NCBI GenBank assembly: GCA_018692315.1 | Contig: JABHKC010000183.1 | Span: 1 to 32,461 of the forward strand | DNA from: Bacteroidota bacterium | Lineage (GTDB): Bacteria; Bacteroidota; Bacteroidia; Bacteroidales; JABHKC01 | Reading direction: 5' to 3' | Length of the DNA: 32,461 nt | Shown: positions 1 to 30,458 of the stretch, in pieces | How positions within the stretch are numbered: the stretch's first letter is position 1 | How the letters are laid out: each line of letters starts with the position of its first letter | Position numbers and translations under genes: made by a program | The notes under the pieces: generated by a model | Seen by the model: the letters and a program-made list of their open reading frames with translations, nothing else | Database searches by the model: none | What the model was told of the DNA's origin: nothing

Positions 1-2703
1 GCCCCAAATGGAAATTGCAAGATTTTTACCTGTATAAACTCCCGATCCTACAAGCAAACCACTCACACTAAATACTCCGATCTCACTAATCATTACCGGT
101 TTTGTTTCCCATGCTGTTTTTGGAATACCCAAAGTCATATTTGAGCCTGTGTTTATTGTTGTTTTGAAATGTTTTGGCTGAGGGATTTGTATGATAGATT
201 TCGAAACATTTGCAGAGTTTGGTGGATAGGTCAAATTAGCTGCATTGTTCATTTTTATTTGATAGCCTTCGCCGGGAACCATATCGCCGAAAACATTAAT
301 TCCATAAGTAGGCCAATAAACCTGCCCTAATGAGTTCTTGACAATCTCAATATCGCTGGTGATTGTACTTAACATTTCGACAATTGGAGCGGCATCGGTT
401 CGCAAATAAGGAATGAGATACCAGCCAAGCGGAATAGGGCAATCTGTTAGTTCGGGAACTATTTCCGATCCGTTTATTGTCAGAATATCAGAGCTTGCCA
501 TTTTTACTTGATAAGCCTGAGTAATTGAATAATCTCCGATTGAATTAACCTGATACGCAGGCCAATAAACCTGACCCATATAGTTTTTAACAATTTCCAC
601 ATTCGAAACTATATCACTCAAAATTGAATCGAATGGCACTTCCAAAGGTGAAATATATGTTGAAAAATAGCACCAGTTCAGCGGCAGAACTATTTGTTGC
701 GATGTTGACATTGTTGAAACAGACAATGAGGATAAACCACTCATTCCATTTACAGCAAAAAACTGTTGGTCGGTCATAGGAGGAACGGGCATGTAGTTGG
801 CATTTACATAATACTCAATACTATCAGAAATATCCCAGATTTTCCATTTAAACATTTCACCATCAGTAAAACCATTATTCATTCCAACTTCTGTACCCCA
901 TGCTGCAATTGAAGTTGTGTTATTTTGCCAAATTTGATATCCGCCGCATGCAAGTGTTCCCAAGGAATCGTAAAATACGCCAATATAATCTCCTGCATCT
1001 ATAGGATTACCATTTATTATAATAGTTACGGTATCAGGAATTAAGATAGTATGATTTGTTGAAGTTACTGTGTATGGCCAATTTGGTGCATTAGGGTCTA
1101 TCGGTTGGTTTATTTCAAAACTGGTATTTATAGTACATCCATTATTATCATATACTACAACTGAATAATTTCCTGCATTTAGACTTGAAATATCTTCAGT
1201 GTTCATTCCGTTCGACCACTGAAAATAGTAAGGACTCGTCCCACCGTCAATTGTCAAGTCAATATCACCATCATTAGCACCAAAGACACTTGCATTGCTT
1301 ACTATCGACGATAAAATAAGTTCTAAAGGTTCAGTTATCTCAATTGTATCCGATATTGTATTTCCATTAAAATCACCAATCGTAACATAATAAAAGCCGG
1401 CTGCCAAATTTGATAAATCCTGAGTCGTATTTCCTGTATTCCACAAATATACATAGGGTGTCGTTCCACCAAAAACCGTAAGATTAATTTCGCCGGATGA
1501 ATCGTTGTAGCAGTTTAAGTCAGAGGTGTTTATCACAACATCAAAATCGGAAAAATAGAAATAATTCGACACAAAAGTTGGTAGTCCTTCTCCACATATC
1601 TCTAAACCTGGAGTTGAAGAAACATCTATATTTATCGCATTTTGGGTAAAAACACTAAGCCCTCCGGTAGATAATGGTGGGCTAATACTAGACAACCAAT
1701 ATTGATCGTCTCTGGCACAGTAAACTTTACTATCTGTGGCAAGCTGAACAGCACCACCATCGCCATAAGTTTGGGATCCTAACCAACCAACTGTAAGGTG
1801 AGAGTTTAAGAAATTGCTTAAGTTAGGTAGTTGATATAAATCCCATTGATGTACTTCGTTATCCCATCTATTTACGGCATATAAATAATGCTCATCTGGC
1901 GAAAATTCACAACCGTAAGCATCACTATATCCGTTTATTGTAATTGGATTTGATAAAATTCCGGTGTTATTATCAAAATTAAATAATTCATAAGTAGCCA
2001 TTCCTTCAATTGCAACAATCAACCGACTACCACTTGGCGATAGTTTCATATAGCCTCGCGAATCAGCAGAAGATCCGCTGTGTACAGTCCCAACATTTGA
2101 TTGCACATATAAACTTATGTCAATATTTGCTGAAGTAATTAGGTAAGAACGAAAAGTATTGTTGTTCCACTCATGAACAACAACCCAATAATCTATTCCA
2201 TTTGCGTGTTTTGTAACTGCAATTTTCTCAGGTGAAGTAGGTAAAATTGGGATGTTTTTTTCCAAAGGATCAATATCGCCGAGCCCACCATTTGCAGTCA
2301 TGTCAATTCTGGAAAATGCTAATCCGCCCGATCCAAGATTATCATCAACTGTGAAAATATAGTATGTGTTTGGGTCATAAGGTTTTGGTACAATTACAGC
2401 AGACATAGTAGATGAGTTATCACCGGTCAGTCCATACCCGTTTGGCATTTGGTTCATATTTGCATCCCAAACAGTAGCCCCATCGCTAAAAAACAACAAG
2501 TTGCAATTTTGATCGCTAATTGTTGCCACTCCTTCGTTAGTAAAAAGGGGGCTACCTCCAACTGCCGATGGAGAAACTGTTACACAATCCCACGAAACGC
2601 CTGCATTTGAACCAAAAATCCAATTACTGGTTTCGCCACTTTGGGCATAGGTGTTTGAGATTAAAATCGAAACTAATAGAAATGTAAAAATCTTTGTTTT
2701 CAT
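1..2703 (-). CDS. Large secreted T9SS-type surface protein, N-terminal 901 codons (3' end outside window)
   Basis: The reading frame is open from an ATG at 2701-2703 to the left edge, so the gene is cut by the window. The start is chosen because it begins a signal peptide (MKTKIFTFLL..., likely cleaved after Ala20 in NTYAQ). Residues about 20-370 read like a beta-propeller of the kind seen at the N terminus of Bacteroidota gliding or adhesion proteins (repeated TYYIFTVDD, HEWNNNTF, YLYAVNRWD segments). Two SprB-like repeats follow at about 393-450 and 470-525 (GGTTPYVYLWNTGNTTQDLS; GGTSPYYFQWSNG). A module at about 540-660 (TNHTILIPDT ... GDYIGVFYDSLGTLACGGY) matches the repeated module of the 1775-aa protein at 25131-30458. 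Two YWPAYQVN/YWPTYGIN segments near residues 714 and 795 and a NTGSNMTL segment follow, again as in that protein. A sorting domain is therefore expected just past the left edge. Role inferred: secreted or cell-surface structural protein or adhesin. Confidence 0.85.
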   Translation of the reverse strand, partial: MKTKIFTFLLVSILISNTYAQSGETSNWIFGSNAGVSWDCVTVSPSAVGGSPLFTNEGVATISDQNCNLLFFSDGATVWDANMNQMPNGYGLTGDNSSTMSAVIVPKPYDPNTYYIFTVDDNLGSGGLAFSRIDMTANGGLGDIDPLEKNIPILPTSPEKIAVTKHANGIDYWVVVHEWNNNTFRSYLITSANIDISLYVQSNVGTVHSGSSADSRGYMKLSPSGSRLIVAIEGMATYELFNFDNNTGILSNPITINGYSDAYGCEFSPDEHYLYAVNRWDNEVHQWDLYQLPNLSNFLNSHLTVGWLGSQTYGDGGAVQLATDSKVYCARDDQYWLSSISPPLSTGGLSVFTQNAINIDVSSTPGLEICGEGLPTFVSNYFYFSDFDVVINTSDLNCYNDSSGEINLTVFGGTTPYVYLWNTGNTTQDLSNLAAGFYYVTIGDFNGNTISDTIEITEPLELILSSIVSNASVFGANDGDIDLTIDGGTSPYYFQWSNGMNTEDISSLNAGNYSVVVYDNNGCTINTSFEINQPIDPNAPNWPYTVTSTNHTILIPDTVTIIINGNPIDAGDYIGVFYDSLGTLACGGYQIWQNNTTSIAAWGTEVGMNNGFTDGEMFKWKIWDISDSIEYYVNANYMPVPPMTDQQFFAVNGMSGLSSLSVSTMSTSQQIVLPLNWCYFSTYISPLEVPFDSILSDIVSNVEIVKNYMGQVYWPAYQVNSIGDYSITQAYQVKMASSDILTINGSEIVPELTDCPIPLGWYLIPYLRTDAAPIVEMLSTITSDIEIVKNSLGQVYWPTYGINVFGDMVPGEGYQIKMNNAANLTYPPNSANVSKSIIQIPQPKHFKTTINTGSNMTLGIPKTAWETKPVMISEIGVFSVSGLLVGSGVYTGKNLAISIWG

Positions 2704-2880
2704 AATCCAAGTTATAAGTTAGAATTTAAAATTTCAAAAAAATCATTATAAAGACAGATATCTTGTATTGAAGTTGCCTATAAAATGTAATTTTTAGAAA
2801 AAAAACAGGATTTTATAGTTTTAAAGGAAAATTGAAAAAATAGATTTATAAATATTTTCTGTAACTAAACAGTATGTTTA

Positions 2881-3003
2881 GGGAACATCTAAAAATGCAA
2901 ATTTCATCGTTGTTTCAAAATTTTAAAATCCTCATTTACAACGGTAAACTGCGGTTTTAAAATTTATTACGCCTTGAAATTTACTATTTTTAGAAGTCCC
3001 CTT
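2881..3003. repeat. 123-bp quasi-palindromic repeat, copy 1 (MITE-like)
   Basis: The copy aligns without gaps to 15659-15781, with about 17 differences in 123 bases. Both ends carry an inverted motif (GGGAACATCTAAAAAT at the left; ATTTTTAGAAGTCCCC at the right), and the interior is also roughly self-complementary around the centre (near CATTTACAACGGTAAACT). No protein is encoded. It looks like a miniature inverted-repeat element or a REP-type palindrome. Target-site duplication is not obvious. Confidence 0.75.
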
Positions 3004-3080
3004 TATATTGTTGATTTTATGATTGCTGCAAAATTTATCGTACCGTAAAAAAGGCTATGTTGTTGATTATGTTTTCTTTG

Positions 3081-3911: not shown

Positions 3912-5336
3912 CTACCTTCTGTAAAGATATTCTCCCTTTAAATTTTTGTTTAAAAGTTTGCCGGATTTTATTACAATTTTTCCATTTATGATTACGTATT
4001 CCGGCGAACCAATAGTTTTGAAATTTTCGTATGCGTTATAATCACAATTTTGATGATGAGTTTTTGCCGAAATAGTATTTGATTTTTTAGTATCCCAAAT
4101 CACAATATCGGCATCCGAACCAACATTTATAGCTCCTTTTTTTGGATACATACCAAAATGTTTGGCTGCATTGGTCGAACAAAGTTCCACAAATTTTTGT
4201 TTGCTCAGCAGACCTTCTAAAACTCCATAAGTATAAATTAAACTCAAGCGATGCTCCACCCCGCCAATGCCGTTAGGAATTTTTGTAAAATCTTTGGAAC
4301 CTGTGTTTTTTTGACCGGCAAAATGAAAAGGGCAATGGTCTGTAACAATGGTCTGTACACGTCCGTTAGCGATCGCTTTCCAAAGTTTTTCTTGATGCGA
4401 TTTTTCGCGTAGGGGAGGGCTCATTACATATTTTGCACTTTCAAAATTCTTTAAGTTATAAAGTTTTTCGTCTAAAAGCAGATATTGTGTGCAAGTTTCT
4501 GCAAATATATTTTTGTTTGATTTTTGCGAAAGTTCAATTTGTTCAACCGATTCTTTTGCTGAAACATGAACTATATAAATTTTTGTTTGAAATTTTTCCG
4601 ATAAATTTATAAGAGATTTTACTGCCTCAGATTCTGCTTTCGGAGGCCTCGATTTTGGATGATAAAACGGGGAAAGTTTATTTTTATTTATTAATTCTGA
4701 TTGCATATTTTTTATGATAGTATCATTTTCGCAATGAACACATACAGTTGCATCTAATTTTTTCGCATTTTCTAAAACTTTAGAAAGCTCGTTTTCAGAA
4801 ATGCCAATAGTATCCTGATATGCCAAATATACTTTAAACGAATTAATGCCTTCGTGCTCAACACATTGTCGCATTTCTTTTGCTGTGTTTTTGTTCCATG
4901 AAGTGATGCTCATATGAAACCCATAATCTATGAAACAGTTTTTCGCAATCTGTTTTCTTTCGTTTAGAGCTTCTATTAATGATTGTCCGGGCAAAGGCGT
5001 TACAAAATCGATAATCGAAGTTGTGCCTCCGAAAAGTGCTGCACGACTGCCAGTTTCAAAACTATCGGAAGATTTGCCAAGTGGTGTTTCCAAATCGAAA
5101 TGCACGTGCGGATCTATGCCACCGGGAAAAACCAATTTGTTTTTTGCATTAAGCACAATTGTTTCATTTTCATCGAACTGAATATTATTTCCGATTTCAG
5201 TTATTTTTCCGTTTGACAATAAAATGTCGGCATTAACAGAATCGACTGAATTTACTATTGTGCCGTTAGAAACTATAATGTCTTTAGTGTTTTCATGGGC
5301 TTTTCTATCTGTGTAAGAATTGTCAAATTTGTTCAT
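3912..5336 (-). CDS. hydA: Dihydropyrimidinase / D-hydantoinase-like cyclic amidohydrolase
   Basis: A 474-residue cytosolic metal-dependent amidohydrolase of the dihydropyrimidinase/hydantoinase group, which opens cyclic amide rings (dihydrouracil, dihydrothymine, hydantoins). Visible metal ligands: PGGIDPHVHF (H77, H79), K168 in INSFKVYLAYQ (the lysine carbamylated in this family), H201 in CVHCEN, H257 in IVHVSA and D333 in VTDHCPFH. SPPLR (306-310) and IPNGIGGVEHR are also family marks. Length is normal, with a roughly 18-residue N-terminal extension before the usual DIIVSNGTIV strand. The start overlaps the stop of the upstream gene by 4 bp (ATGA type), so it is translated in an operon with it. 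No dihydropyrimidine dehydrogenase or ureidopropionase is nearby, so the substrate is not fixed; an allantoinase or plain hydantoinase role remains possible. Confidence 0.85.
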   Translation of the reverse strand: MNKFDNSYTDRKAHENTKDIIVSNGTIVNSVDSVNADILLSNGKITEIGNNIQFDENETIVLNAKNKLVFPGGIDPHVHFDLETPLGKSSDSFETGSRAALFGGTTSIIDFVTPLPGQSLIEALNERKQIAKNCFIDYGFHMSITSWNKNTAKEMRQCVEHEGINSFKVYLAYQDTIGISENELSKVLENAKKLDATVCVHCENDTIIKNMQSELINKNKLSPFYHPKSRPPKAESEAVKSLINLSEKFQTKIYIVHVSAKESVEQIELSQKSNKNIFAETCTQYLLLDEKLYNLKNFESAKYVMSPPLREKSHQEKLWKAIANGRVQTIVTDHCPFHFAGQKNTGSKDFTKIPNGIGGVEHRLSLIYTYGVLEGLLSKQKFVELCSTNAAKHFGMYPKKGAINVGSDADIVIWDTKKSNTISAKTHHQNCDYNAYENFKTIGSPEYVIINGKIVIKSGKLLNKNLKGEYLYRR

Positions 5337-5839
5337 ACAATTATTGAAGCTAATTCGTTGTCGTTTGCATCTTCCACTTGTGGAATTTGCATCTGTTTGG
5401 CATTTTCGTCGGCTTTCAGAAAATCCCAGTTTCTACGGGCAGCATTTATCACCATTCCTAAAACAAAGCGAATTGCCAAATATTCCATGTTTTCGGGAAT
5501 ATATGGAATGTCGATTTGCCGGTTTGCCAATTTCGAAAGTCTGATTATCAGTCGTTTTGCTTCATGTTCGTCAATTCCTTTTTCCGAACTTCTGATTAGG
5601 TCGTAGAACTCGTTTGGAAGATTATTGTAGAGGAAAGTATCAATTTTCACTACGATTTTTATAAGTATCTTTTCTTCACCGGTTTCAGTGATTAACGGTA
5701 CGTTAATTTTTGTATTTAGGTTTTTTGCTATTTGTCTGATTTCGTCGAGATTAAGTTTTTGCCGTTTTTTGGGTTTTGCAAAATAACCGGCCAGGAGCTC
5801 TTTAAATTCTTTTACTGTAAGGTCGTTTAAAGTTTTCAT
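5333..5839 (-). CDS. Conserved-looking hypothetical protein, 168 aa
   Basis: I do not recognise a family. The protein is soluble, charged and mostly helical by eye: a basic N-terminal stretch (KPKKRQKLNLDEIRQIAKNL), a central VPLITETGEEKILIKIVVKI strand region, then LIRSSEKGIDEHEAKRLIIR and a hydrophobic MEYLAIRFVLGMVINAARR segment too polar to be a secure membrane helix. The tail is acidic. It lies 18 bp downstream of the 577-aa secreted protein gene and overlaps hydA by 4 bp, so the three probably form one transcript, but the context gives no functional hint. Confidence 0.65.
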   Translation of the reverse strand: MKTLNDLTVKEFKELLAGYFAKPKKRQKLNLDEIRQIAKNLNTKINVPLITETGEEKILIKIVVKIDTFLYNNLPNEFYDLIRSSEKGIDEHEAKRLIIRLSKLANRQIDIPYIPENMEYLAIRFVLGMVINAARRNWDFLKADENAKQMQIPQVEDANDNELASIIV

Positions 5840-5857
5840 ACTGAGGCATTAAAGTTT

Positions 5858-7591
5858 TTATTTTGGTGATTTTGTTTGTTGCAAGTAGGTTGGTTCATCT
5901 CTTAGATGTTCCATGACATTATCAACATCGTGTTTACCAAGCTTAAAATGATTGCGTCCTAAATTATATGAAATAATATCTATGGCAATATCTATGTCGT
6001 TGACATCAGTGCCTGTGGGATTCATGTTTGATGGTCTGGTAACTACTTCTTTCATTCCAAGCATTCTGTGATATTCTTTGAAAAATTGTCTTGGAAATGA
6101 AATACTATTTGTTATATTTGCACCGAGGTTAACATGTTCTCCTGAAGGTAGTATGTGTGTTACTTCTGTGCAATTACTGCTTCCTGGAGAAATGTTAACA
6201 CCTACACTATCGGGTGTGGTTGTGTATGGATTGTAATTAGGAATTGGATAAATGAATTGTTGAGAATGTATTTTTGTAGGAATCCCTGTGTATGATTCAA
6301 ATAAGTTTTCAAGCATTTCAGCACCATCAAGCTGAGCTTGAGAAAAACTAGGACTGTGCCAGACGTGAATAGTATCATATAAAGCAATTTGAATGTTAAA
6401 TCTTCGTATCATTAAAGCAATGTTTTCTGTGGAGATGAAAACTGTTGTGTCGTTTAATCCTGAATGAACTGTGTCAGGGATTAGTGTGTAGTTTTTTTCT
6501 GTTGTTAAAGTGTCTCCATAACCATCGGCTGAAGGAAGAGTTATTTGCATACCTTCCCAAAATTTATAATTATCTTTACCAATACCAATAGTGAATGTTT
6601 CTTCTTCTTCAAGATCTGTAAAAGTTGCAGAACCATCACTGCCCGTTCGTAAACTATCAATGTTTCCTGAAGAATCTTTTATGTAAACTAAAGCACTATC
6701 AATACTTGTTGAATCCATTAAATTCCATGCGTTTATCTTGAAGTTTAGTACTGTGATGGGAACTGGATTAATAAAAATAGGTATGTAACTATTGTCACCT
6801 TCATGAATTGTTAATGTAGTGTCGCCACCATAATAACCTTCAATACTATCCCAACTAACTTTATACGTTGCAGAAGCTGTTTGCAAATTTTTAAAATTAT
6901 ATTCTGAATTGTTTAAAGATGGAGTGTGGTTTTCAAACTCAGGTTTAAAGATTTGACCGATAGGTGAAGTATTAGTTTTTACAAATTTTTGAGTGAAAGA
7001 TTTATTATCATCAGTTTGTACATTAATTAAATAAATTCCATTTGCAAGATCTGAAAGATTATTATAATATTTATTATCTGAAATTTTATCCTGGAATATT
7101 TGTTGACCTGCAATATTGTGAATGAAAATATTTGCATTTATATGTTTTGAAAAGAACATGTTAAAATCACTACCTATGTTTGGTTGAGTCTTAACATTTT
7201 TAAGGAGCTCTTTATTAGTTATGATGTTTAAAGTATCGATAGTTGTAGTGTCGATGTATGTGGTGTCGATTCTGACAGGAAGAGAAAAATCAAGCATTGA
7301 AGAAAGACCCATATTATACTCAAAAACAGTATCTGGTGTGAATTCTTCCATATCAAGAGGTTTAAGCTTAAGTGCTAAATTAGGAATTGAGTATCCTGTT
7401 TCATCATTAAAAAGATGTAATGTTCCTGTTCCCCAGAGAATATCTGATTCGATGACTTGAGCTTGAGATTGGTTTGAGATACTAACTGCCATAATTGTTC
7501 CAAGAATTGCTAAGGAGATTGGCTTAAACGCCACTTTAGCCCCTTTTCGGGCATATTTGCCAAGTTTTCCCATGGTGTCTAACAGATTCAT
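5858..7591 (-). CDS. Secreted protein with internal sorting-domain-like module and degenerate metalloprotease-like C terminus
   Basis: 577 residues. The N terminus has a basic stretch (MGKLGKYARKGAKVAFK) before a hydrophobic signal core (ISLAILGTIMAVSI), with cleavage likely near QSQAQ at residue 45. Residues about 150-207 (INANIFIHNIAGQQIF ... GIYLINV ... KFVK) look like a T9SS type A sorting domain, but it is internal rather than terminal. Residues about 280-372 resemble a carboxypeptidase regulatory-like beta-sandwich (VYIKDSSGN, GSATFTDLEEEETFTIGI). In the last 180 residues KEYHRMLGM (505-513) and PSNMNP (520-525) line up with the HExxHxxG and Met-turn of matrixin-like metalloproteases, but both histidine positions are Lys and Arg. 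If the alignment is right it is a pseudoenzyme. First gene of the run leading to hydA. Confidence 0.7.
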   Translation of the reverse strand: MNLLDTMGKLGKYARKGAKVAFKPISLAILGTIMAVSISNQSQAQVIESDILWGTGTLHLFNDETGYSIPNLALKLKPLDMEEFTPDTVFEYNMGLSSMLDFSLPVRIDTTYIDTTTIDTLNIITNKELLKNVKTQPNIGSDFNMFFSKHINANIFIHNIAGQQIFQDKISDNKYYNNLSDLANGIYLINVQTDDNKSFTQKFVKTNTSPIGQIFKPEFENHTPSLNNSEYNFKNLQTASATYKVSWDSIEGYYGGDTTLTIHEGDNSYIPIFINPVPITVLNFKINAWNLMDSTSIDSALVYIKDSSGNIDSLRTGSDGSATFTDLEEEETFTIGIGKDNYKFWEGMQITLPSADGYGDTLTTEKNYTLIPDTVHSGLNDTTVFISTENIALMIRRFNIQIALYDTIHVWHSPSFSQAQLDGAEMLENLFESYTGIPTKIHSQQFIYPIPNYNPYTTTPDSVGVNISPGSSNCTEVTHILPSGEHVNLGANITNSISFPRQFFKEYHRMLGMKEVVTRPSNMNPTGTDVNDIDIAIDIISYNLGRNHFKLGKHDVDNVMEHLRDEPTYLQQTKSPK

Positions 7592-10829: not shown

Positions 10830-12065
10830 TTGATTATGAGAATTACAGATTTATTTTTAAAAAATATTGGCCCTTTTAAAGAAGCAAAAATTGATTTTAT
10901 AGAAAATAATATTGAAAAGCCTCCTGTTACAATAATTACTGGAGAAAATGGGACTGGTAAAACAATTGTTTTAGATGCAATTCGTGGGCTTTTATTTGCA
11001 AGATATGATAAGTTAGAAAGAAAAATCGTCAGATTCTACCAAGACTTTAATATTAGTGCTAATTTTCATAAACCTCAGATTTTAGATGGTAAAACCAATT
11101 ATGAAAAAACAGAAGTATCGTGCCAAAAAATTGCTAATGGCACTTTTTTTATTCCAGATAATATGTCAATTAGCCGAGTATTGGCAAATATTGAACCAAA
11201 TCCTGATTGGATAATAAATTATTGGACTTCAATGATTTCGAATGATTCTTTCGAAATAAAAAATTTAGTAGCTCCAAAACCTGAAATTTACCTTAGAGAT
11301 TCTTTAAACGGTATTCATAGAAATGTGGAACTTACTCAGTTGGTTTGTTTTTTCGATTATTTAAAATCGAGTGACAATGTGGAAGAAAAGATTTTAGGGG
11401 AGTTTCTTTTTGCAATCCTTAAAAAGATTTTTAAGCATAGTTTAATAAACGGAGAATTTAAATATGTTGAACGAAGCACATTAACCCCAATTGTATCGCA
11501 AAATGGTTTCGATGTTCCTATTGAAAACCTTAGTAGTGGAAATTTATATTTAGTACAAAGGCTGGTTTCTTTATTAGGACAAATGTACTCGGTTCATGTA
11601 TTAAATTCAGGAAAAATTGAGGAACTTTGCAAAACGCCAGGTTTGCTTTTGATTGACGAAGCTGAAAATCATTTACATCCTAAATGGCAGAAAACTTTTA
11701 TTAATTCGATATTAGAAATTTTTCCAAATCTGCAAATTATTGTAACTACTCACTCACCTTTTATAGTTTCTTCAGTCGAAAATGCACGAATATATGTTTG
11801 CAAATCTATGCAAGATCATTCCATCATTGAAGACATGACTAGCGAATACTCTAATAAACCGATAGAAGAAATATTGTTATCACCCGTTTTTAATACAAGT
11901 ACTTTTAACATAGAAATTACAACTTTATTATCGGAAAGAAAAAATGCTTTAGAAAATGGCAAAAATCAAAAAGCAGAGGAAATAAAAAATAAATTAAAGC
12001 AATTAAACCCTGAGTACTTCTCATATTTCGATGTAGAAAATCTTTTACATAATATTTCAAAATAA
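10830..12065 (+). CDS. ptuA: AAA/ABC-type ATPase, PtuA-like (Septu defence)
   Basis: 411 residues of the OLD/SMC-like ATPase group. Walker A is GENGTGKT (38-45), the ABC-type signature is LSSGN (234-238), Walker B is LLLIDEAE (272-279), and the switch histidine is in TTHSPF (307-311). The last 60 residues hold a charged helix (KNALENGKNQKAEEIKNKLK) as in the retron- and Septu-linked ATPases. The N-terminal MRITDLFLKNIGPFKEAKI is typical of the group. In Septu the ATPase forms a complex with an HNH nuclease that attacks nucleic acid after phage infection. The HNH gene starts 6 bp downstream. No reverse transcriptase gene lies near, so a retron-type arrangement is not supported. The symbol rests on the gene pair rather than a search; a non-Septu ATPase-HNH pair is possible. 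Confidence 0.7.
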   Translation: MIMRITDLFLKNIGPFKEAKIDFIENNIEKPPVTIITGENGTGKTIVLDAIRGLLFARYDKLERKIVRFYQDFNISANFHKPQILDGKTNYEKTEVSCQKIANGTFFIPDNMSISRVLANIEPNPDWIINYWTSMISNDSFEIKNLVAPKPEIYLRDSLNGIHRNVELTQLVCFFDYLKSSDNVEEKILGEFLFAILKKIFKHSLINGEFKYVERSTLTPIVSQNGFDVPIENLSSGNLYLVQRLVSLLGQMYSVHVLNSGKIEELCKTPGLLLIDEAENHLHPKWQKTFINSILEIFPNLQIIVTTHSPFIVSSVENARIYVCKSMQDHSIIEDMTSEYSNKPIEEILLSPVFNTSTFNIEITTLLSERKNALENGKNQKAEEIKNKLKQLNPEYFSYFDVENLLHNISK

Positions 12066-12071
12066 TTAAAG

Positions 12072-12734
12072 ATGAGATATTTAAAAAGACTTCTGAAACC
12101 CGAAATTTTAGTAAAGAAGGAACAAGAATGGACAGAAAAATTTTTAATTTCGAAAAAAAAACGTCCTGATAACAGTAAATATGGACATACTAAAATAAAA
12201 GAGCAGCTTAACTCAATGAGTTTTCATAAATGCTTTTATTGCGAAACAAAACTTAAAAATACGCCTAAACAAATTGACCATTACATAGAAATTTCAGAAC
12301 GAGCAGATATAGCATTCGATTGGAATAATTTGTATTTATCGTGCACAAACTGCAATAGCAAAATTGCAAATAAGGAAATCTCTGTAAATGAGGCATTAAA
12401 TCCTTGTAAAGATTCGGATAATAAAATACAAAATCATTTAACATTTGAAAATGAAATTATTACTGCCAAAAATAATTCTGAAATAGGATTGCAAACAATA
12501 AAAAAATTCCGCTTAGATTCTAATTTATTAGACAATCTTAGAGCAAAACAACTAATTCAATTTCAACAATTACTTGTTAAAATTTTTCAAAATAAAGAAA
12601 ATGAAGGAAGAAAAAAGATGAATAAGACTGAAATTGAAAGTTTAGTTAGGTTTTCTCAAGTTGATTATTCGTTTTCTTTAATGTTCAGGATTCTCTTGCA
12701 AAAATTTGGAATAGTTGATTTATCTGAACACTAA
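12072..12734 (+). CDS. ptuB: HNH endonuclease, PtuB-like / TIGR02646 family
   Basis: 220 residues. The start MRYLKRLLKPEILVKKEQEW matches the usual opening of TIGR02646/PtuB proteins. The HNH core has CFYC (C54, C57), IDHY (D69, catalytic H70), WNNLYLSC and CTNC (C91, C94) with K97: a zinc-stapled beta-beta-alpha nuclease with all expected residues. The C-terminal half is helical and charged. It follows the ATPase gene by 6 bp and would be the DNA- or RNA-cutting effector of the pair. Its stop overlaps the ATG of the transporter gene by one base (TAATG), so all three can be on one transcript. Confidence 0.75.
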   Translation: MRYLKRLLKPEILVKKEQEWTEKFLISKKKRPDNSKYGHTKIKEQLNSMSFHKCFYCETKLKNTPKQIDHYIEISERADIAFDWNNLYLSCTNCNSKIANKEISVNEALNPCKDSDNKIQNHLTFENEIITAKNNSEIGLQTIKKFRLDSNLLDNLRAKQLIQFQQLLVKIFQNKENEGRKKMNKTEIESLVRFSQVDYSFSLMFRILLQKFGIVDLSEH

Positions 12735-19193: not shown

Positions 19194-20501
19194 ATGAGTT
19201 TTAAAACGAAACACAAAATTATAAATGGAGACAGCCGTGAAATGACTGAATTAAAGGATAAATCAGTTGATTTGGTTATCACTTCTCCACCATATTGGCA
19301 GTTAAAAGATTACGGAACAGAAAATCAAATTGGATATAATGACAATTATGAAGAATATATAAACAACTTAAATCTTGTTTGGAAAGAAAGTTATAGAGTT
19401 TTAAATAATGGATGTCGTTTATGTGTTAATATAGGTGACCAATTTGCAAGAGCCGTTTATTACGGTCGATATAAAGTTATTCCTATAAGAACAGAAATAA
19501 TTAAATTTTGTGAAGCTGTTGGATTTGACTATATGGGAGCTATAATTTGGCAAAAAAAAACAACTTCAAATACAACTGGCGGAGCTTCTTTAATGGGTAG
19601 TTATCCTACACCAAGAAACGGTATTCTTTCAATTGATTATGAATTTATTCTATTATTCAAAAAATTAGGAACGCCAATAAAACCAGAAAGAGAACTAAAA
19701 GAGCAATCTAAAATGACCAAAGATGAATGGAAAACATATTTTGATGGACATTGGAATTTTGGTGGAGCAAGACAAGATGGTCATATTGCAATGTTTCCAG
19801 AAGAATTACCAAAAAGATTAGTAAAAATGTTTTCGTTTGTTGGAGATACTATTCTTGATCCATTTCTCGGAAGTGGAACAACTTCACTTGCTGCAAGAAA
19901 TTTAAACCGAAATTCAGTTGGATATGAGATGAATCCTGAGTTTATCCCATTTATTGAAAGAAAACTTGAAATAAATCAAGGTGATATTTTTAATTCAGAT
20001 TATAAATTTCTAAAACAAGAAAAGCTAAATATTGATTTTAAAAGTCAAATAAAAGAATTACCGTATATTTTTAAAGACTTCCATAAGTTTGAAAAAAAGA
20101 CCGACCCTAAAAAGTTACAATATGGTTCAAAAATAGACCAAAATGGCACAACCAAACGAGAAGATTATTTTTTAGTAAAAGAAATAATAAGCCCGGAATT
20201 AATGAAACTGAATAATGATTTAGTTGTCCGACTTATTGGTGTTAAAGAAAAAAAGGAAGCAAACGGTAAGGCTATTGAATTTTTACAACTCAAAACAAAA
20301 GGACAAAAAGTGTTTTTTAAATATGACGAGACTAAGCACGATGAGAATAATAATTTAATGGTCTATTTATATTTAAAAAATAAGACATTTTTAAATGCAC
20401 ATTTGATAAAAAATGGTTTTGTAAATGTCAGTACAGACTTCACTTACAAAAATAAAGATAAATTTATAAAATTGGAGAAAGATTTTGTTCAATCAAAATG
20501 A
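19194..20501 (+). CDS. Type II DNA methyltransferase (MjaI-like, beta class) with C-terminal SNase-like domain
   Basis: 435 residues. Catalytic motif IV is TSPPYW (30-35), before motif I DPFLGSGTT (222-230): the order of a beta-class N4-cytosine/N6-adenine methyltransferase, and SPPYW favours N4-cytosine. TLDPFLGS-like AdoMet binding continues as GYEMNPEFI. After about residue 325 comes an extra domain (VVRLIGV 344-350, GQKVFFKYD, MVYLYLKNKTFLNAHLIKNGF) that lines up with the staphylococcal nuclease fold. The Arg before LAYIYA in SNase is Asn here (NNNLMVYLYL), so nuclease activity is unlikely. It is the first gene of a cassette with a wHTH protein (17-bp overlap) and an MjaI-like endonuclease, and would protect host DNA against it. 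Target site CTAG is only inferred from the endonuclease. Confidence 0.82.
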   Translation: MSFKTKHKIINGDSREMTELKDKSVDLVITSPPYWQLKDYGTENQIGYNDNYEEYINNLNLVWKESYRVLNNGCRLCVNIGDQFARAVYYGRYKVIPIRTEIIKFCEAVGFDYMGAIIWQKKTTSNTTGGASLMGSYPTPRNGILSIDYEFILLFKKLGTPIKPERELKEQSKMTKDEWKTYFDGHWNFGGARQDGHIAMFPEELPKRLVKMFSFVGDTILDPFLGSGTTSLAARNLNRNSVGYEMNPEFIPFIERKLEINQGDIFNSDYKFLKQEKLNIDFKSQIKELPYIFKDFHKFEKKTDPKKLQYGSKIDQNGTTKREDYFLVKEIISPELMKLNNDLVVRLIGVKEKKEANGKAIEFLQLKTKGQKVFFKYDETKHDENNNLMVYLYLKNKTFLNAHLIKNGFVNVSTDFTYKNKDKFIKLEKDFVQSK

Positions 20502-20817
20502 TATTAATATACTAATTCAGAATATTCCAAATGGTAGACAAAATGCTATTACAGCAAGGGTAATAGCTCAAAGATTAGGTTATCCAGTTGGTGGCAATCA
20601 AGTAAAAATAAGAAAATTAATTGATTTTGCTATTGATAATAGCAATGTTATTTTGAGTTCATCTGGTAGGGTGCCAAAAGGTTATTGGTTTTCAATAGAT
20701 AGACAAGAAACAATCGAATACATAGCTTCATTGCGAAATAGAGCGAGTGAGATTACTGATAGGGCTGATAATCTTAGAGCTGGATGGAATAATGTCAACC
20801 CAAATAATAGAATATAA
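20485..20817 (+). CDS. Small winged-helix-like protein of the restriction-modification cassette
   Basis: 110 residues starting at TTG 20485, overlapping the methyltransferase gene by 17 bp; no in-frame ATG is available near. Residues 10-75 (ARVIAQRLGYPVGGNQVKIR, LIDFAIDNSNVILSSSGRVP, KGYWFS) read as a winged helix, with an HTH followed by a wing ending in the GYW strand. The last 35 residues (YIASLRNRASEITDRADNLR) form a helix typical of small phage-type wHTH proteins. It could be a regulator of the cassette, like a C protein, or a subunit of the endonuclease. Its stop is 2 bp before the endonuclease ATG, so the three genes are one operon. Confidence 0.6.
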   Translation: MFNQNDINILIQNIPNGRQNAITARVIAQRLGYPVGGNQVKIRKLIDFAIDNSNVILSSSGRVPKGYWFSIDRQETIEYIASLRNRASEITDRADNLRAGWNNVNPNNRI

Positions 20818-20819
20818 TT

Positions 20820-21539
20820 ATGGCTAAAAAAGAAATAGAGAAATACGCAAAGCCTTTTGGGAAAAAGGAAAAAGTATTAAACTACACAAGTAATACTTAC
20901 CAACTAACAAGACCGAACAAAGTTGATGCAGTTATGGCATTAATAAGAGAATGTCAACCAAAAGCACTAGATGAATGGGAAAAGTTCTATTTTAAAAAAG
21001 CTTATACCAAGAAAAAAGATAGTGTTAAAATAACAAAAGAAACATTGGACGAACTTGGAGAAAGACTGTATGCAAAAATAACAGAAGTAGTTATTCCTGA
21101 ATGGACAGCAGCTTTTAATGATTTAACGTTACAAGACTGTAAAGATTATATTTATGAAGTTACAATTGTTCGAACTTATGATGGCTTTTTACTTGAAAAA
21201 TCAGTAATAAATGATGGACTTGCAAAAACATTTCCAGATATAGAGTTTGAAGAAAGCGACCCTGAATTAGACCACGCTGGTGATATTGATTATCTTGGAA
21301 AAGTTGGGAACAAATATTTTGGCATTCAAATAAAGCCAGTTACAGCAAATGCGAATTTTGGCAATTACAAGATTACTGAGAGAATGAGTGCAAGTTTTCA
21401 AGATTTTGAGAATAAATATGGCGGAAATGTTTTTGTAGTTTTTTCAACTCGAACTGGTGATAAAAAAGTCATTAAAAACAAAGAAGTTGTTGACGAAATA
21501 AGAACCGAAATTGAACGATTAAGGAAAGCCAGCTTGTAA
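20820..21539 (+). CDS. MjaI-like type II restriction endonuclease
   Basis: 239 residues. The PD-(D/E)XK core is readable: ELDHAGDIDYLGKVGNKYFG (D155/D157), then IQIKP (Q170, K172), with E125 upstream. This arrangement and the NYTSNTYQLTRPNKV opening resemble the MjaI endonuclease family (PF09568), whose type member cuts CTAG. The position directly after a beta-class methyltransferase and a small wHTH protein supports a restriction role. The active-site Gln instead of Glu in the QIK triad is seen in several restriction enzymes. Specificity is inference. The gene ends 122 bp before an inverted-repeat element, which may mark the cassette edge. Confidence 0.68.
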   Translation: MAKKEIEKYAKPFGKKEKVLNYTSNTYQLTRPNKVDAVMALIRECQPKALDEWEKFYFKKAYTKKKDSVKITKETLDELGERLYAKITEVVIPEWTAAFNDLTLQDCKDYIYEVTIVRTYDGFLLEKSVINDGLAKTFPDIEFEESDPELDHAGDIDYLGKVGNKYFGIQIKPVTANANFGNYKITERMSASFQDFENKYGGNVFVVFSTRTGDKKVIKNKEVVDEIRTEIERLRKASL

Positions 21540-25130: not shown

Positions 25131-28100
25131 TTACTTAACAATATTCATAGTCTTTGTTTTAACAAAGTCGCCAGCTTCCATTTTATAAAAATAGGTGCCT
25201 GCCGGTAATTTGCTTGCATCAAAATCAAATGAATGATTTCCCGCATTTAAATTTGTAAAACTTAAAACATCCAATTTTTCTCCTAAAATATTAAATACTG
25301 AAATCTCAACATCGGAAATTTCCATAACAGAGAAACTAATATTTGTAGTTGTAGAAAATGGGTTAGGATTGTTTTGTAACAGTTGGAATTCTGCTATTCC
25401 AAATTCCGAACCTGCCAGTTTTTCAACAACAGAAATTTTATTAACTTCAAAATATTCATTTCCTTCAAGCCAACTTACTATCTGAATATTAGTTTCATCA
25501 ATTCCGTTCCAATATTTTAGAATAAATTTTTCATTTTCAATCATTCCATCAATTTGGTTGGAGTATTCATCATTTCCCCATATTGATATTGCTAAATTAT
25601 CTCCACTAAATACGGATGAACCAACAAGTTTTCCGTGTTCGCTAAAAATACCAATTTCATCCCCGATAACAGGAGTCTTACTACTCCAGGCAGAAATTGG
25701 AATACATAATGACATGTTTGAACCGGTATTTTCAACTTCAGTAAATTTGACAGGAAGCGTCAAATCGGTATATCCTGCTTTATTTAAATTTGCACTATTT
25801 GCTGGAAAATAGAAGGTTACAGCATTGTATAATTGAATCTGATAACCTTCGCCAGGTTTCATATCTCCAATAAGATTTATACCATAAGCAGGCCAATACA
25901 TCATTCCTAAACCATCTTTAACGATGCTGATATCTGATACCATTGAACTCAATACATCGGAAATTAGGGTTTGAGTTTGACGAAGATATCCCATAATACT
26001 CCAGCCTGCAGGAATAGGTACCGGTGTAAGTTCTGGTACTGCGGCCATTCCTTCAATACTTAAAACGTGAGCTGCATTCATTTTAATTTGATATCCTTCA
26101 CCAATAGCCATATTTCCAATTAAATTGATGCCATAAGCAGGCCAATACATCATTCCTAAACCGTTTTTAACAATTTCTACATCGGTAGCAATATTGACAA
26201 AAACATTACTGATAATTGGATCAAAAGGTTCAATGTAAGTTGAGAAGATTCTCCATCCTACTACTAAATTTATATCTTGAATTTGCGAAGTATGTGCAAT
26301 AAGCTCTGTGATACCACTCAATCCATTCACAGCAAATGAGCCCGTATTAGGAAAATTAGTAGTATTGTATAGTGCAGCAGCATCATATTCTGCTTCTTCA
26401 GAAACATCGTAAATTTTCCAATTAAATTCTTCACCTGTAGCAAAACCATCGTTGCCTGCATCTACTCCCCATGCAGTAACTGCAGTTGTAATTCCTGTCC
26501 ATTCTAAAAATCCTCCGCATGCTAATGTTCCAAGCGAATCGTAGAAAACTCCAATTAAATCACCAATGTCAATATTGTTGGTATCAATCATTAATGGAAT
26601 AGTATTTTGAATTAAAATAGTATGATTGATTCCCGTGTTGGGCAACACCCAAGGAGCAACAAAAATATATTTATCATTTGAAACATTCATACAACCATTT
26701 AAATCAGTTACAGCAACTGAATAAGTTCCTGTAGTGCCAACATCTATTGATTGCCCTGTTTCACCATTATTCCACAAATAGCTCGTAAAACCTGCACCAG
26801 CATCAATAATTAATGTCTGATTGTTACCAATAGTTGCATTATCGCCAATATCAACTTGTGGAAGTGTTAATACTTCTGCAATATTCATTGTTGAAAATGA
26901 ACAACCTACTGAATTTGTAACAGTTAATGAAATAATATAAGTACCAGAATTTGCATAAGTATGCTGTGGATTATTTAAATTTGAAATATTTCCATCATCA
27001 AAATCCCACAGCCAGTCCGTAATGTTGGTACTGCCAGTACCAGCCGTTGTGGTAACAATAGTTGGATCTCCAAGGCATGCAGTTGACGCTGTAAAAGAAA
27101 CATCAGGAAGTTCATTTACAGTAACAGATTGAGTAATATAATCACTACAATTGTTTTGGTTAACAACTAATAAAAAAACAGGAATAGTTCCTGCATCGGA
27201 GAATTCGTATGAAGGATTTTGCAAGGTAGATGTATTGCTAACTCCGAAAGTCCAACTCCAAGAAATTAAAGGTGAGCCTGAACCATCAGATAAGTCGGTA
27301 AATACAGTGGCTTCTCCAACACAAACTTCAGTGAAAGTAAAATCGGCAACAGGTGAGGCATATACTTCAACAGATTGTGTTATTGAATTTATACAATGAT
27401 AATCTGATACTGTAAGAGTAACATTAAACAAACCAGAGTTTTGGTATATATAAAACGGATTTTGCACATTGCTTATATTTCCATTTCCAAAATCCCAAAG
27501 CCAGTTAATAATTGTTCCATTTGCCGGAGTTGATAGATCTGTATATACATTGGCACTATCGAGACACACTGCAGGTGCTGAGAAATTGGCAGTTGGCAAA
27601 TCAAATACTAAAACATCTTGTACGATTGAAGAGCTACAACCGTTTGAATTGGTTGTAGTCAAGCTTACTGCATGGATTCCTGCATTTGAAAATGTATGAA
27701 CCGGATTAGACAAGTTGGAAGTTGTACCATCGCCAAAATCCCAAAACCAAGTTGTTAAACTTACTGTGCCACCAGTACTAGCACCGAATGACAGATCGGT
27801 AAAATGTGTTTCATTTCCAAAACAAATTGTATCTCCATAAAAATCTGCAAAAGGTTCAGCAAAAACTATAACACTACTTGTAACAATATCTAAACAGCCA
27901 AAAGAATTTGTTACAGTTAAAGTTACAGAATAAGTTCCATCTTGCAGATATACATGAAGTGGATTTTGAAGAGTTGAGTTATTTCCATCACCAAAATCCC
28001 AAAACCAAGACACTATGTTGGAGTTTGTCGAAAATGAAAAATCGTTAAAAACTGTGGTATCTCCTATGCAAACATCATTTCCCATAAAATATGCCATTGG

Positions 28101-30458
28101 CAAATTGTTAACAATAGCTTGATTTGTCATTGAATTTGTACAACCAAAAATATCTGTAGCAGTTAGTGTTACATCATATGTACCCGGCAATGCGTAAATG
28201 TGTGTGGTACTTTCTCCAACTGCAAAAGTACCATCACCAAAATCCCAAGAATAGGAGGCATTCTGACCTGGAAAAATAGATGAAATAGCAAGAATCGTTG
28301 CTTCACCAAGACAAGCCATATTATCTACACTAAAATCAACAATTGGAAGCGGATTCACTATTACTATTTGGGTTTCAAAATTTGTGCATCCATTCGCATC
28401 TGCGTATGTATATTTAATCTCATGAGGACCTTGGCCAGCTACACTTGGGCTGAAAATATTAGAAGCAATTCCGACACCATTAAATGTTCCACCTGCTGGC
28501 AATCCAATAAGTGTTACTGGAGAATGGTTTTCGCAATAACTTAATGCTAAACCAGTGAAACTGACAACCGGCAGTGGATAATGTTCAACAGTTTCTGTAA
28601 TAACTGATCCGAAACCTGTGAATGCTGAAATAGCGTAGCTTCCAATAATTGATAAGTCTGCTGTTTGCTGGAATGTATAATTAATACTTCCTCCTGAAGG
28701 AACTACAGCATATACAGTTTCAGATATAGTATTATTTGCATCAATTTGGTAAGAAACTGAAAAGCCGGTGGCATCCTGAAAATTGTAATTTGTAATTTCA
28801 ACAGTAAGCAATTCGCTGGCACTTAAATCGCAACCGGAAACTGGTGAAGTAATTGCAGTAACTGCTTTAGTTATAGCAGAGAGTGCTTGCAGGGAACTGA
28901 GGCCATTAACAAAGAAAGTGCTATCGTTGGCAAAATTGGAGTCGTAAGAAATATTTTGCATCAAATACTCGTTTCCGGTAGTAGCATCCCAAATTACCCA
29001 TTTGAAAGTTTCGCCTGTGGCAAAGCCATCATTTCCAATATCGGCTCCCCAGGCAGATATTGCAGTTTGTCCTGTCCATTCTGCATAGCCTGCACATGCC
29101 AGTATACCTAAAGAATCAAAGAAAACACCAATATAGTCTCCAGAGTCGATTGCCATTCCATCAATGGAAGTAATAATAGTTTGAGGGATTAAAATGGTAT
29201 GGTTGGTCGCTGTAATAGAATATGTCCAGCCAGGATCGGTGGCAATAGAAAATGGTGCAGTCAAGGAAGCCAATCCGCTTAGACCATTCACTACAAAATT
29301 GCCTCCATTAGGGAACATTCCAGTAAGATTATATTGAGCTTCTGCCATAAATTCCATATTTTCGGAGGCATCAAATACTTTCCAAATAAATTCTTCGCTA
29401 GGTGCAAAACCATCGTTTCCAACATCTGCACCCCAGGCTGTGATGTTTGTTGTCTGTCCTTCCCAGGCAGCATATCCCCCACATGTTAATGCTCCATTAG
29501 CCTGATAGAAAACCCCAAGATAATCGCCAGATTCAATCTGAACACCATTTATAGTAAGTGGTATTGTATTTTGGATTAAAATAGTATGGTTCGAGCCTGT
29601 TATCTGGTATGTCCAATTTGGAGCTGGCAAAGTGGCAGCAACTAAGGATTCTAATCCACTTATTCCGTTAACAGTAAAATTTCCACTATTAGGAAATGCT
29701 ACTGAATAAGTTGCAGAAGCTAATAATTCTGTATTTGATGAAGCATCCCAAATTTTCCAGACAAATTCTTCACCAGCAGCAAATCCATCAAGTCCTATGT
29801 CAGCTCCCCATGCAGAAACACTATTTGTTTGACCGTTCCATTCAGAGTAACCACCGCATTTTAAAGTTCCGAGCGAATCGAAAAATACCCCAATAAAATC
29901 GCCTGACTCAATTGCCAGACCATCAATTGTCAAAGGTATAGTATTGGGTACTAAAATGGTGTGATTCGTTCCAGTAACCGAATAGTCCCATTCTGGTGCT
30001 ACAGGATTAACAACTGGCGAAGTAGCTGATAATGATGCTAATCCACTCATTCCATTTACAGCAAAACTATTTCCATTTGGAAAACCAGTGCTTATAAAAG
30101 TCGCTGTAGCATCAAGATCTAAATTTGTGGAAGCATCCCAAATTTTGAAATTAAATATTTCATTATTTACAAATCCATCGTTTCCTATATCTGTACCCCA
30201 GGCAGCAATAGTAGAAGAAGTTCCAGCCCATTCAACAAAACCACCACAGGCTAATACTCCAAGTGAATCGTAAAAAACTCCAATATAGTCACCACTTTCA
30301 ATCTGAACACCATCAATTGTCATAGGAATCGTGGACTGCAACAAAATGGTGTGGTTCGTACTAGTAATCGGCTGATACCAATTAGGTTGCGAAAAACTTG
30401 CAGTAGAGATTAAAATACCCACCACAAGACATGCAATTTTTAATAGTTGTTTTTTCAT
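25131..30458 (-). CDS. 1775-aa secreted T9SS repeat protein (PKD repeats, repeated module, sorting domain)
   Basis: Signal peptide at 1-24 (LKIACLVVGILISTASFSQ). A roughly 120-residue module with TNHTIL, SGDYIGVFYDSLG, LACGGY, AWGxDIGNDGF and KIWDAS motifs occurs four times in tandem (about 27-146, 157-274, 281-400, 411-528) and a fifth time at 1270-1389. Six PKD-like domains (about 706-1197; WDFGDG cores, the fourth WDFGNG, the fifth a weaker WTFGVSN, the sixth WDFDDG) sit between. An SprB-like segment (YLWNNGETGQSIDVGTTGTY) follows. Two YWPAYGINLIG segments (1438-1449, 1521-1532) come next, then NTGSNMSLCIP and a type A sorting domain at about 1690-1775 (LLQNNPNPFSTTTNIS, VFNILGEKLD, PAGTYFYKM). 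Exported across the outer membrane and anchored or released; probable adhesin or structural role. The left-edge protein shares the module and the C-terminal assembly. Confidence 0.9.
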   Translation of the reverse strand: MKKQLLKIACLVVGILISTASFSQPNWYQPITSTNHTILLQSTIPMTIDGVQIESGDYIGVFYDSLGVLACGGFVEWAGTSSTIAAWGTDIGNDGFVNNEIFNFKIWDASTNLDLDATATFISTGFPNGNSFAVNGMSGLASLSATSPVVNPVAPEWDYSVTGTNHTILVPNTIPLTIDGLAIESGDFIGVFFDSLGTLKCGGYSEWNGQTNSVSAWGADIGLDGFAAGEEFVWKIWDASSNTELLASATYSVAFPNSGNFTVNGISGLESLVAATLPAPNWTYQITGSNHTILIQNTIPLTINGVQIESGDYLGVFYQANGALTCGGYAAWEGQTTNITAWGADVGNDGFAPSEEFIWKVFDASENMEFMAEAQYNLTGMFPNGGNFVVNGLSGLASLTAPFSIATDPGWTYSITATNHTILIPQTIITSIDGMAIDSGDYIGVFFDSLGILACAGYAEWTGQTAISAWGADIGNDGFATGETFKWVIWDATTGNEYLMQNISYDSNFANDSTFFVNGLSSLQALSAITKAVTAITSPVSGCDLSASELLTVEITNYNFQDATGFSVSYQIDANNTISETVYAVVPSGGSINYTFQQTADLSIIGSYAISAFTGFGSVITETVEHYPLPVVSFTGLALSYCENHSPVTLIGLPAGGTFNGVGIASNIFSPSVAGQGPHEIKYTYADANGCTNFETQIVIVNPLPIVDFSVDNMACLGEATILAISSIFPGQNASYSWDFGDGTFAVGESTTHIYALPGTYDVTLTATDIFGCTNSMTNQAIVNNLPMAYFMGNDVCIGDTTVFNDFSFSTNSNIVSWFWDFGDGNNSTLQNPLHVYLQDGTYSVTLTVTNSFGCLDIVTSSVIVFAEPFADFYGDTICFGNETHFTDLSFGASTGGTVSLTTWFWDFGDGTTSNLSNPVHTFSNAGIHAVSLTTTNSNGCSSSIVQDVLVFDLPTANFSAPAVCLDSANVYTDLSTPANGTIINWLWDFGNGNISNVQNPFYIYQNSGLFNVTLTVSDYHCINSITQSVEVYASPVADFTFTEVCVGEATVFTDLSDGSGSPLISWSWTFGVSNTSTLQNPSYEFSDAGTIPVFLLVVNQNNCSDYITQSVTVNELPDVSFTASTACLGDPTIVTTTAGTGSTNITDWLWDFDDGNISNLNNPQHTYANSGTYIISLTVTNSVGCSFSTMNIAEVLTLPQVDIGDNATIGNNQTLIIDAGAGFTSYLWNNGETGQSIDVGTTGTYSVAVTDLNGCMNVSNDKYIFVAPWVLPNTGINHTILIQNTIPLMIDTNNIDIGDLIGVFYDSLGTLACGGFLEWTGITTAVTAWGVDAGNDGFATGEEFNWKIYDVSEEAEYDAAALYNTTNFPNTGSFAVNGLSGITELIAHTSQIQDINLVVGWRIFSTYIEPFDPIISNVFVNIATDVEIVKNGLGMMYWPAYGINLIGNMAIGEGYQIKMNAAHVLSIEGMAAVPELTPVPIPAGWSIMGYLRQTQTLISDVLSSMVSDISIVKDGLGMMYWPAYGINLIGDMKPGEGYQIQLYNAVTFYFPANSANLNKAGYTDLTLPVKFTEVENTGSNMSLCIPISAWSSKTPVIGDEIGIFSEHGKLVGSSVFSGDNLAISIWGNDEYSNQIDGMIENEKFILKYWNGIDETNIQIVSWLEGNEYFEVNKISVVEKLAGSEFGIAEFQLLQNNPNPFSTTTNISFSVMEISDVEISVFNILGEKLDVLSFTNLNAGNHSFDFDASKLPAGTYFYKMEAGDFVKTKTMNIVK
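28875..30380 (-). repeat. Four tandem copies of a roughly 120-codon module
   Basis: Coding repeats of about 360-390 bp inside the 1775-aa gene. The fifth copy is at 26292-26651 and a related copy at about 720-1086 in the left-edge gene. They are clearly homologous but not identical, so they look old rather than recent duplications. Confidence 0.85.

Follow-up and report, generated by a model that had tools for sequence, protein, structure and literature searches.

Locus and methyltransferase core

The window considered here, the whole 32,461-nucleotide stretch of contig JABHKC010000183.1 from a Bacteroidota genome (GCA_018692315.1), encodes a DNA methylase that is followed on the same strand by a short open reading frame (ORF) and an endonuclease gene:

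19194-20501, + strand: DNA methylase ORF, 435 amino acids (ORF list)
19194..19973, + strand: beta-class N4-cytosine/N6-adenine DNA methyltransferase core, residues 1-260 (PF01555, 2zie, 2zig)
19284-19298, + strand: motif IV, SPPYW, residues 31-35
19857-19883, + strand: motif I, DPFLGSGTT, residues 222-230
20037..20165, + strand: Lys-rich linker LPYxFxDxHxxDKKxDPKKLxFGSKID, residues 282-324 (columns conserved across 87 relatives)
20166..20501, + strand: staphylococcal nuclease (SNase)-like OB-fold domain, residues 325-435 and stop codon (PF00565, AlphaFold model, active-site comparison)
20485..20817, + strand: 110-amino-acid ORF with a TTG start, overlapping the methylase 3' end and lying between methylase and endonuclease
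20820..21539, + strand: type II restriction endonuclease of the MjaI family, 239 amino acids (PF09568, PADLOC REase_II)

Residues 25-254 of the methylase match PF01555 (N6_N4_Mtase) with 145.5 bits, and a search of the sequences of solved structures returned 2zie with an E-value of 4e-52. The core of the full-length model superposes on 2zig (TTHA0409) with a Z-score of 24.8 and 38% identity over 218 residues. Motif IV precedes motif I, which is the permuted order of the beta class, and residues ~1-260 constitute a complete permuted beta-class methyltransferase. The enzyme most likely transfers the methyl group of AdoMet to an exocyclic amino group, with N4-cytosine favoured by the SPPY motif. 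PADLOC assigned the methylase to MTase_II (PDLC03259, a profile of 423 positions) with 612 bits over residues 5-426, and the downstream endonuclease to REase_II (PDLC03450, 286 bits); the latter also matches PF09568 (RE_MjaI) with 93.5 bits (cut-off 22.7). By these family calls, methylase and MjaI-family endonuclease form a type II restriction-modification system, in which the methylase gene supplies the modification function.

The intervening 110-amino-acid ORF has no family match in Pfam, NCBIfam, or PADLOC, and counterparts of low identity occur at a minority of the related loci; from its sequence, we would guess that it may encode a small DNA-binding protein. Homologues of PtuA and PtuB of the Septu defence system are encoded at 10830-12734, about 6.5 kb before the methylase, and together with the methylase locus they likely form a defence island. 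Further downstream, at 25131-30458 on the - strand, the ORF list contains a secreted-looking protein of 1775 amino acids with repeated GDYIGVF-type segments and PKD-like repeats, which ends in a sorting-like tail.

The C-terminal tail has an SNase fold

Behind SPPYW and DPFLGSGTT, the 435-amino-acid ORF continues with VVRLIGV, GQKVFFKYD, and MVYLYLKNKTFLNAHLIKNGF, the strings from which the sequence-only reading had proposed an SNase-like domain at 20166-20501. These coordinates correspond to residues 325-435 plus the stop codon and fit the domain boundary well. The proposed SNase match was borne out, as PF00565 is matched at residues 357-429 of the full methylase with 26.6 bits (E 8.7e-6) and by the tail domain alone with 29.4 bits (cut-off 21 in both cases), and all 31 aligned relatives of a diverse set match it as well, the best with an E-value of 8.8e-11. 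Structure prediction and fold search led to the same fold. AlphaFold2, run on the tail alignment, gave a confident model at model residues ~43-156 (block pLDDT mostly 85-92), in which four strands lead into a helix, followed by two more strands, a second helix, a short strand, and a final helix. The 50 best PDB matches of this model in Foldseek are all staphylococcal nuclease, with Z-scores of about 16, and the VIA-align superposition on SNase structures reached a Z-score of 16.6 with an rmsd of 1.9 Å over 113 residues; residues ~318-435 of the full-length model gave a Z-score of 16.9. Sequence identity to the SNase structures is 17-20%, and neither the tail alone nor its profile matched the sequences of solved structures at E-values up to 10, so the link to SNase rests on Pfam and the fold. 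The tail profile also retrieved genuine free-standing SNases from genomes of the same phylum, and a search of the source genome revealed no further SNase. On profile and model evidence combined, the tail of the methylase is an SNase fold.

Degeneration of the active site

Active-site residues were compared by aligning the tail with free-standing SNases from related genomes (L164-L168, L171), which keep DGDT, R-x-x-G-[IV]-[DN]-[AT]-P-E, and, ahead of the L-x-Y strand, [NG]-R; residue counts for the tail family refer to 92 non-identical loci. Three codons mark replaced positions:

20196..20198, + strand: Glu335, corresponding to metal ligand D21 of SNase (Glu at 82 of 92 loci)
20244..20246, + strand: Lys351, corresponding to metal ligand D40 of SNase (Lys at 86 of 92 loci)
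20352..20354, + strand: Asn387, corresponding to R87 of SNase (among 92 loci, Asn 63, His 9, Ile 4, Arg 4, and others)

The position of R35 (residue 346) is occupied by Arg in 59 and by Lys in 33 of the loci, and the loop bearing E43 has lost about 12 residues or more. The tail shares with the staphylococcal nuclease family (PF00565) its fold, its strand order, and the structural residues D77, D83, Y91, Y93, and N100, each retained in 89-92 of the 92 loci, but differs in being fused to a methylase, in the deleted E43 loop, and in the missing C-terminal ARENxRGLW segment. Thus, against the catalytic set of active staphylococcal nuclease (metal ligands D21 and D40, E43 as general base, and the arginines R35 and R87), the tail presents E335, K351, a deleted loop, R/K346, and N387.

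The replacement of R87 by Asn, on which the sequence-only reading had based its view of a catalytically dead domain, is present here, though the position is variable in the family. Larger losses, overlooked in that reading, accompany it (D40 to Lys, D21 to Glu, the E43 loop, and the C-terminal ARExxRGLW segment), and judged by these residues the description as dead is well supported. Given the Lys at the D40 position and the missing E43 loop, the likelihood of inactivity rises considerably, and the tail is very probably inactive as a nuclease, having lost metal binding and catalysis. Some caution is warranted, as Glu335 is still acidic at the D21 position and tempers this interpretation. Tudor-SN (SND1), to which the tail had been likened, resembles it in carrying SNase-fold domains with degenerate catalytic residues inside a larger protein. 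This likeness is looser than proposed, as Tudor-SN is a eukaryotic protein that combines a Tudor domain with five SN domains and is itself an active ribonuclease through SN1 and SN3, whose active sites keep one metal ligand only (PMC5900569). Since Tudor-SN cuts with degenerate sites, degeneracy alone is no proof that the tail is inactive. With a Lys in the metal site and a missing loop, the tail is further degenerated than SN1 and SN3. In contrast to the tandem SN and Tudor arrangement, the methylase has one SNase-like domain and no Tudor match in Pfam.

Several divergent fused members (L101, L111, L113, L173, L174) have a shorter linker. Two of them, L101 and L173, retain the D21-T22 pair and have lost R87 and the E43 loop; these residues suggest that the active site may have been lost stepwise after the fusion.

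Conservation of linker and tail

Within the linker, Y291, F293, D295, D304, G311, and D315 are invariant in 87 sequences, and the median pairwise identity is 0.66. It looks like a part of the functional unit. On its own, the linker is predicted to be disordered (pLDDT 31-32 in blocks 301-320 of the full-length model), and with a pTM of 0.62, this model does not settle the position of the tail against the core. Median dN/dS, calculated from pairs with a core dS below 1.2, is lowest in the core (0.033), followed by the linker (0.069) and the SNase-like part (0.090); these values are rough, as synonymous sites are near saturation. With a dN/dS of ~0.09, the tail is under strong purifying selection and is not decaying.

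Distribution and domain variants

A species-level scan with one genome per species yielded 564 confirmed relatives, the best 80 of which match the methylase over nearly its entire length. The fused methylase is thus present at 80 loci at least, in Bacteroidota, Ignavibacteria, Calditrichota, Cloacimonadota, Desulfobacterota, Spirochaetota, and other phyla. Identities of these best 80 of 564 relatives are 67-88%, and this multi-phylum spread at such identities suggests that the fused methylase has been transferred horizontally. An RE_MjaI endonuclease is encoded in the retrieved stretch at 72 of the same best 80 loci. In a sample of 395 genomes from the same phylum, RE_MjaI scored above the cut-off in 61 and the tail profile matched in 77, the latter number including free-standing SNases and gene remnants. 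No plasmid or phage record covers 80% of the full methylase, and a search of plasmids with the tail returned one weak match; among viral contigs, the relatives are L153 and L154 only.

One locus, L169 (G444:C84:3000-9500, 1640-3034), is a natural domain swap. It keeps the core and linker, and the SNase-like tail is exchanged for an unrelated tail of ~130 amino acids that has no Pfam match. This gene adjoins an SPPYPM-type methylase and two RE_MjaI genes. In a single genus, partial copies of the methylase lie on the same contig (L155, G408:C43; L156, G400:C13; L157, G283:C20; L158, G327:C101), with ~87-97% DNA identity where L155 and L156 were compared, and those of L155 adjoin a full methylase copy and the endonuclease. 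At least three partial copies in two genomes share a common deletion that joins 'SFPY.R' of the core to 'KLTFGSRIE' of the linker and removes the AdoMet motif. These partial copies look like the result of repeated amplification and decay, or like a cassette array.

Target recognition and the adjacent endonuclease

That the tail is an addition beyond the methyltransferase, as the sequence-only reading had assumed, is supported by homologues that are complete at ~260-300 amino acids without it, namely 2zie/TTHA0409 and archaeal, viral, and plasmid enzymes. Plasmid, phage or viral, and PDB homologues align mostly to residues ~2-280, that is, without the tail. The closest solved structure of the core, TTHA0409 of Thermus thermophilus (2zie/2zif/2zig), a putative modification methylase, is a 297-residue chain that lacks an SNase-like tail. 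A role as target recognition domain was therefore rejected, because these related methylases, as well as other methylases adjacent to RE_MjaI, are complete without the tail. The sequence-only reading would have been abandoned had the extension turned out to be an ordinary target recognition domain found in all family members; essentially all members of this methyltransferase clade do carry the tail, which is nevertheless not a target recognition domain. Methylases with an SPPYPM motif beside RE_MjaI (L089, L092, L094-L097, L099) have no match to the tail profile, and those of L089, L092, and L095 showed no SNase domain in a Pfam scan.

The tail is independent of the identity or presence of an adjacent endonuclease. 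At five loci (L017, L020, L029, L041, L067), the methylase has the tail and the retrieved stretch contains no RE_MjaI; the neighbours of L017, L020, and L029 are ordinary genes, e.g. leucyl-tRNA synthetase. At L067, a 239-amino-acid ORF without a Pfam or PADLOC match follows the SNase-tailed methylase directly (5301-6017) and is a candidate for a new endonuclease partner. Distances between tails correlate with those of the core with r 0.74 and with those of the endonuclease with r 0.24 (core vs. endonuclease, 0.25). After correction for the core, a small partial correlation of 0.08 between tail and endonuclease is left, which calls for cautious reading because the permutation null also breaks the relation between core and endonuclease. 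That the tail belongs to the endonuclease by co-evolution was rejected, as its distances track the methylase core. Counts of CTAG, the site of MjaI and a candidate target here, are lower relative to expectation than those of any other 4-base palindrome in genomes bearing the system (observed/expected 0.22), but they are low in genomes without the domain as well (0.37), and GGCC, GATC, GCGC, and CATG shift alike.

Comparison with known methylases

The CTAG 4mC methylases M.MjaI, M.MthZI, and M.BfaI are beta-class enzymes like the methylase described here, but with about 303-364 amino acids (PMC5867850) they are shorter than its 435. The SPPYPM enzymes beside RE_MjaI at L089, L092, and L095-L097 are probably of this kind. 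The best PADLOC match of L095 is PDLC03283, a profile to which the present methylase scores 170 bits, far below its best match to PDLC03259. If L095 is taken to represent the M.MjaI/M.MthZI subfamily proper, the present methylase would lie outside it. PDLC03259 models the methylase including its tail, but is labelled as type II methyltransferase only and leaves the nature of the tail unstated.

Possible functions of the tail

Our preferred interpretation, to which we assign a probability of about 0.5, is that the methylase of this type II system carries an inactive SNase module, exapted and basic, which together with the linker would add DNA contacts beside the target site. The contacts made by tail and linker could clamp the methylase, increase its processivity, or orient it, so that the tail may help the enzyme to hold or scan DNA. 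The net charge of the tail is positive in all 31 members (+2 to +13), which is weak evidence for DNA binding. A related role, which we regard as quite unlikely, is that of a pseudoenzyme in which the dead domain and the invariant linker sense DNA structure or a partner and gate methylation for regulation or targeting; no description of such gating control was found in the literature among type II methylases. The main rival to the DNA-contact role is a protein-docking or dimerisation module without contact to DNA, whose partner would be another copy of the methylase, the endonuclease, or a factor of the host. The new invariant residues YLKNKTF.NAHLIK and K419xK/RxxF, the resemblance of the invariant linker motif to a docking peptide, the binding of Metadherin by SN1-SN2 of Tudor-SN (PMC5900569), and the small partial correlation with the endonuclease that is left after correction (0.08) would all agree with docking. 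However, the tail persists without an adjacent RE_MjaI and beside endonuclease types that are only ~37% alike, and the small downstream 110-amino-acid protein is encoded at a minority of loci, making this alternative possible but rather unlikely.

The remaining explanations are less probable than DNA contact. A mainly structural tail, which packs on the core and stabilises it or completes the DNA cleft without a separate activity, would fit its retention throughout the clade and its divergence together with the core (r 0.74), but homologues without the extension, such as 2zig (Z 24.8), are folded and complete, the linker is predicted to be flexible, and L169 combines core and linker with an unrelated tail; we consider this doubtful. 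A tail that is still a nuclease or nickase, so that one protein combines modification and cleavage, is very improbable given the Lys at D40, the E43 loop deletion, the loss of R87, and the dedicated separate endonuclease gene next to it, even if the Glu at D21 and the Arg/Lys at R35 are conserved and Tudor-SN cuts RNA with its degenerate SN domains (PMC5900569). Finally, an identity of only 17-20% to SNase structures might indicate a chance resemblance or a generic OB fold without SNase homology. The Pfam scores above the cut-off, the matches in 31 of 31 relatives, the top 50 structures being SNase throughout (Z about 16), and the retrieval of genuine free-standing SNases by the tail profile make such a coincidence extremely improbable.

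Implications

In the literature on SNase in connection with DNA methylation or restriction and on PF00565, judged by titles and abstracts and with most subscription journals outside the coverage, we found no paper describing an SNase-methylase fusion. The domain architecture is conserved and already visible to profile libraries; what we did not find described is the SNase nature of the tail. A match to PF00565 in such methylases does not warrant annotation as a nuclease. The natural variants with the tail, without it, or with another tail provide a test set for accessory domains of DNA methylases. The tail is a clear case of a nuclease fold that many phyla retain, inside a mobile defence system, beyond the loss of its active site.
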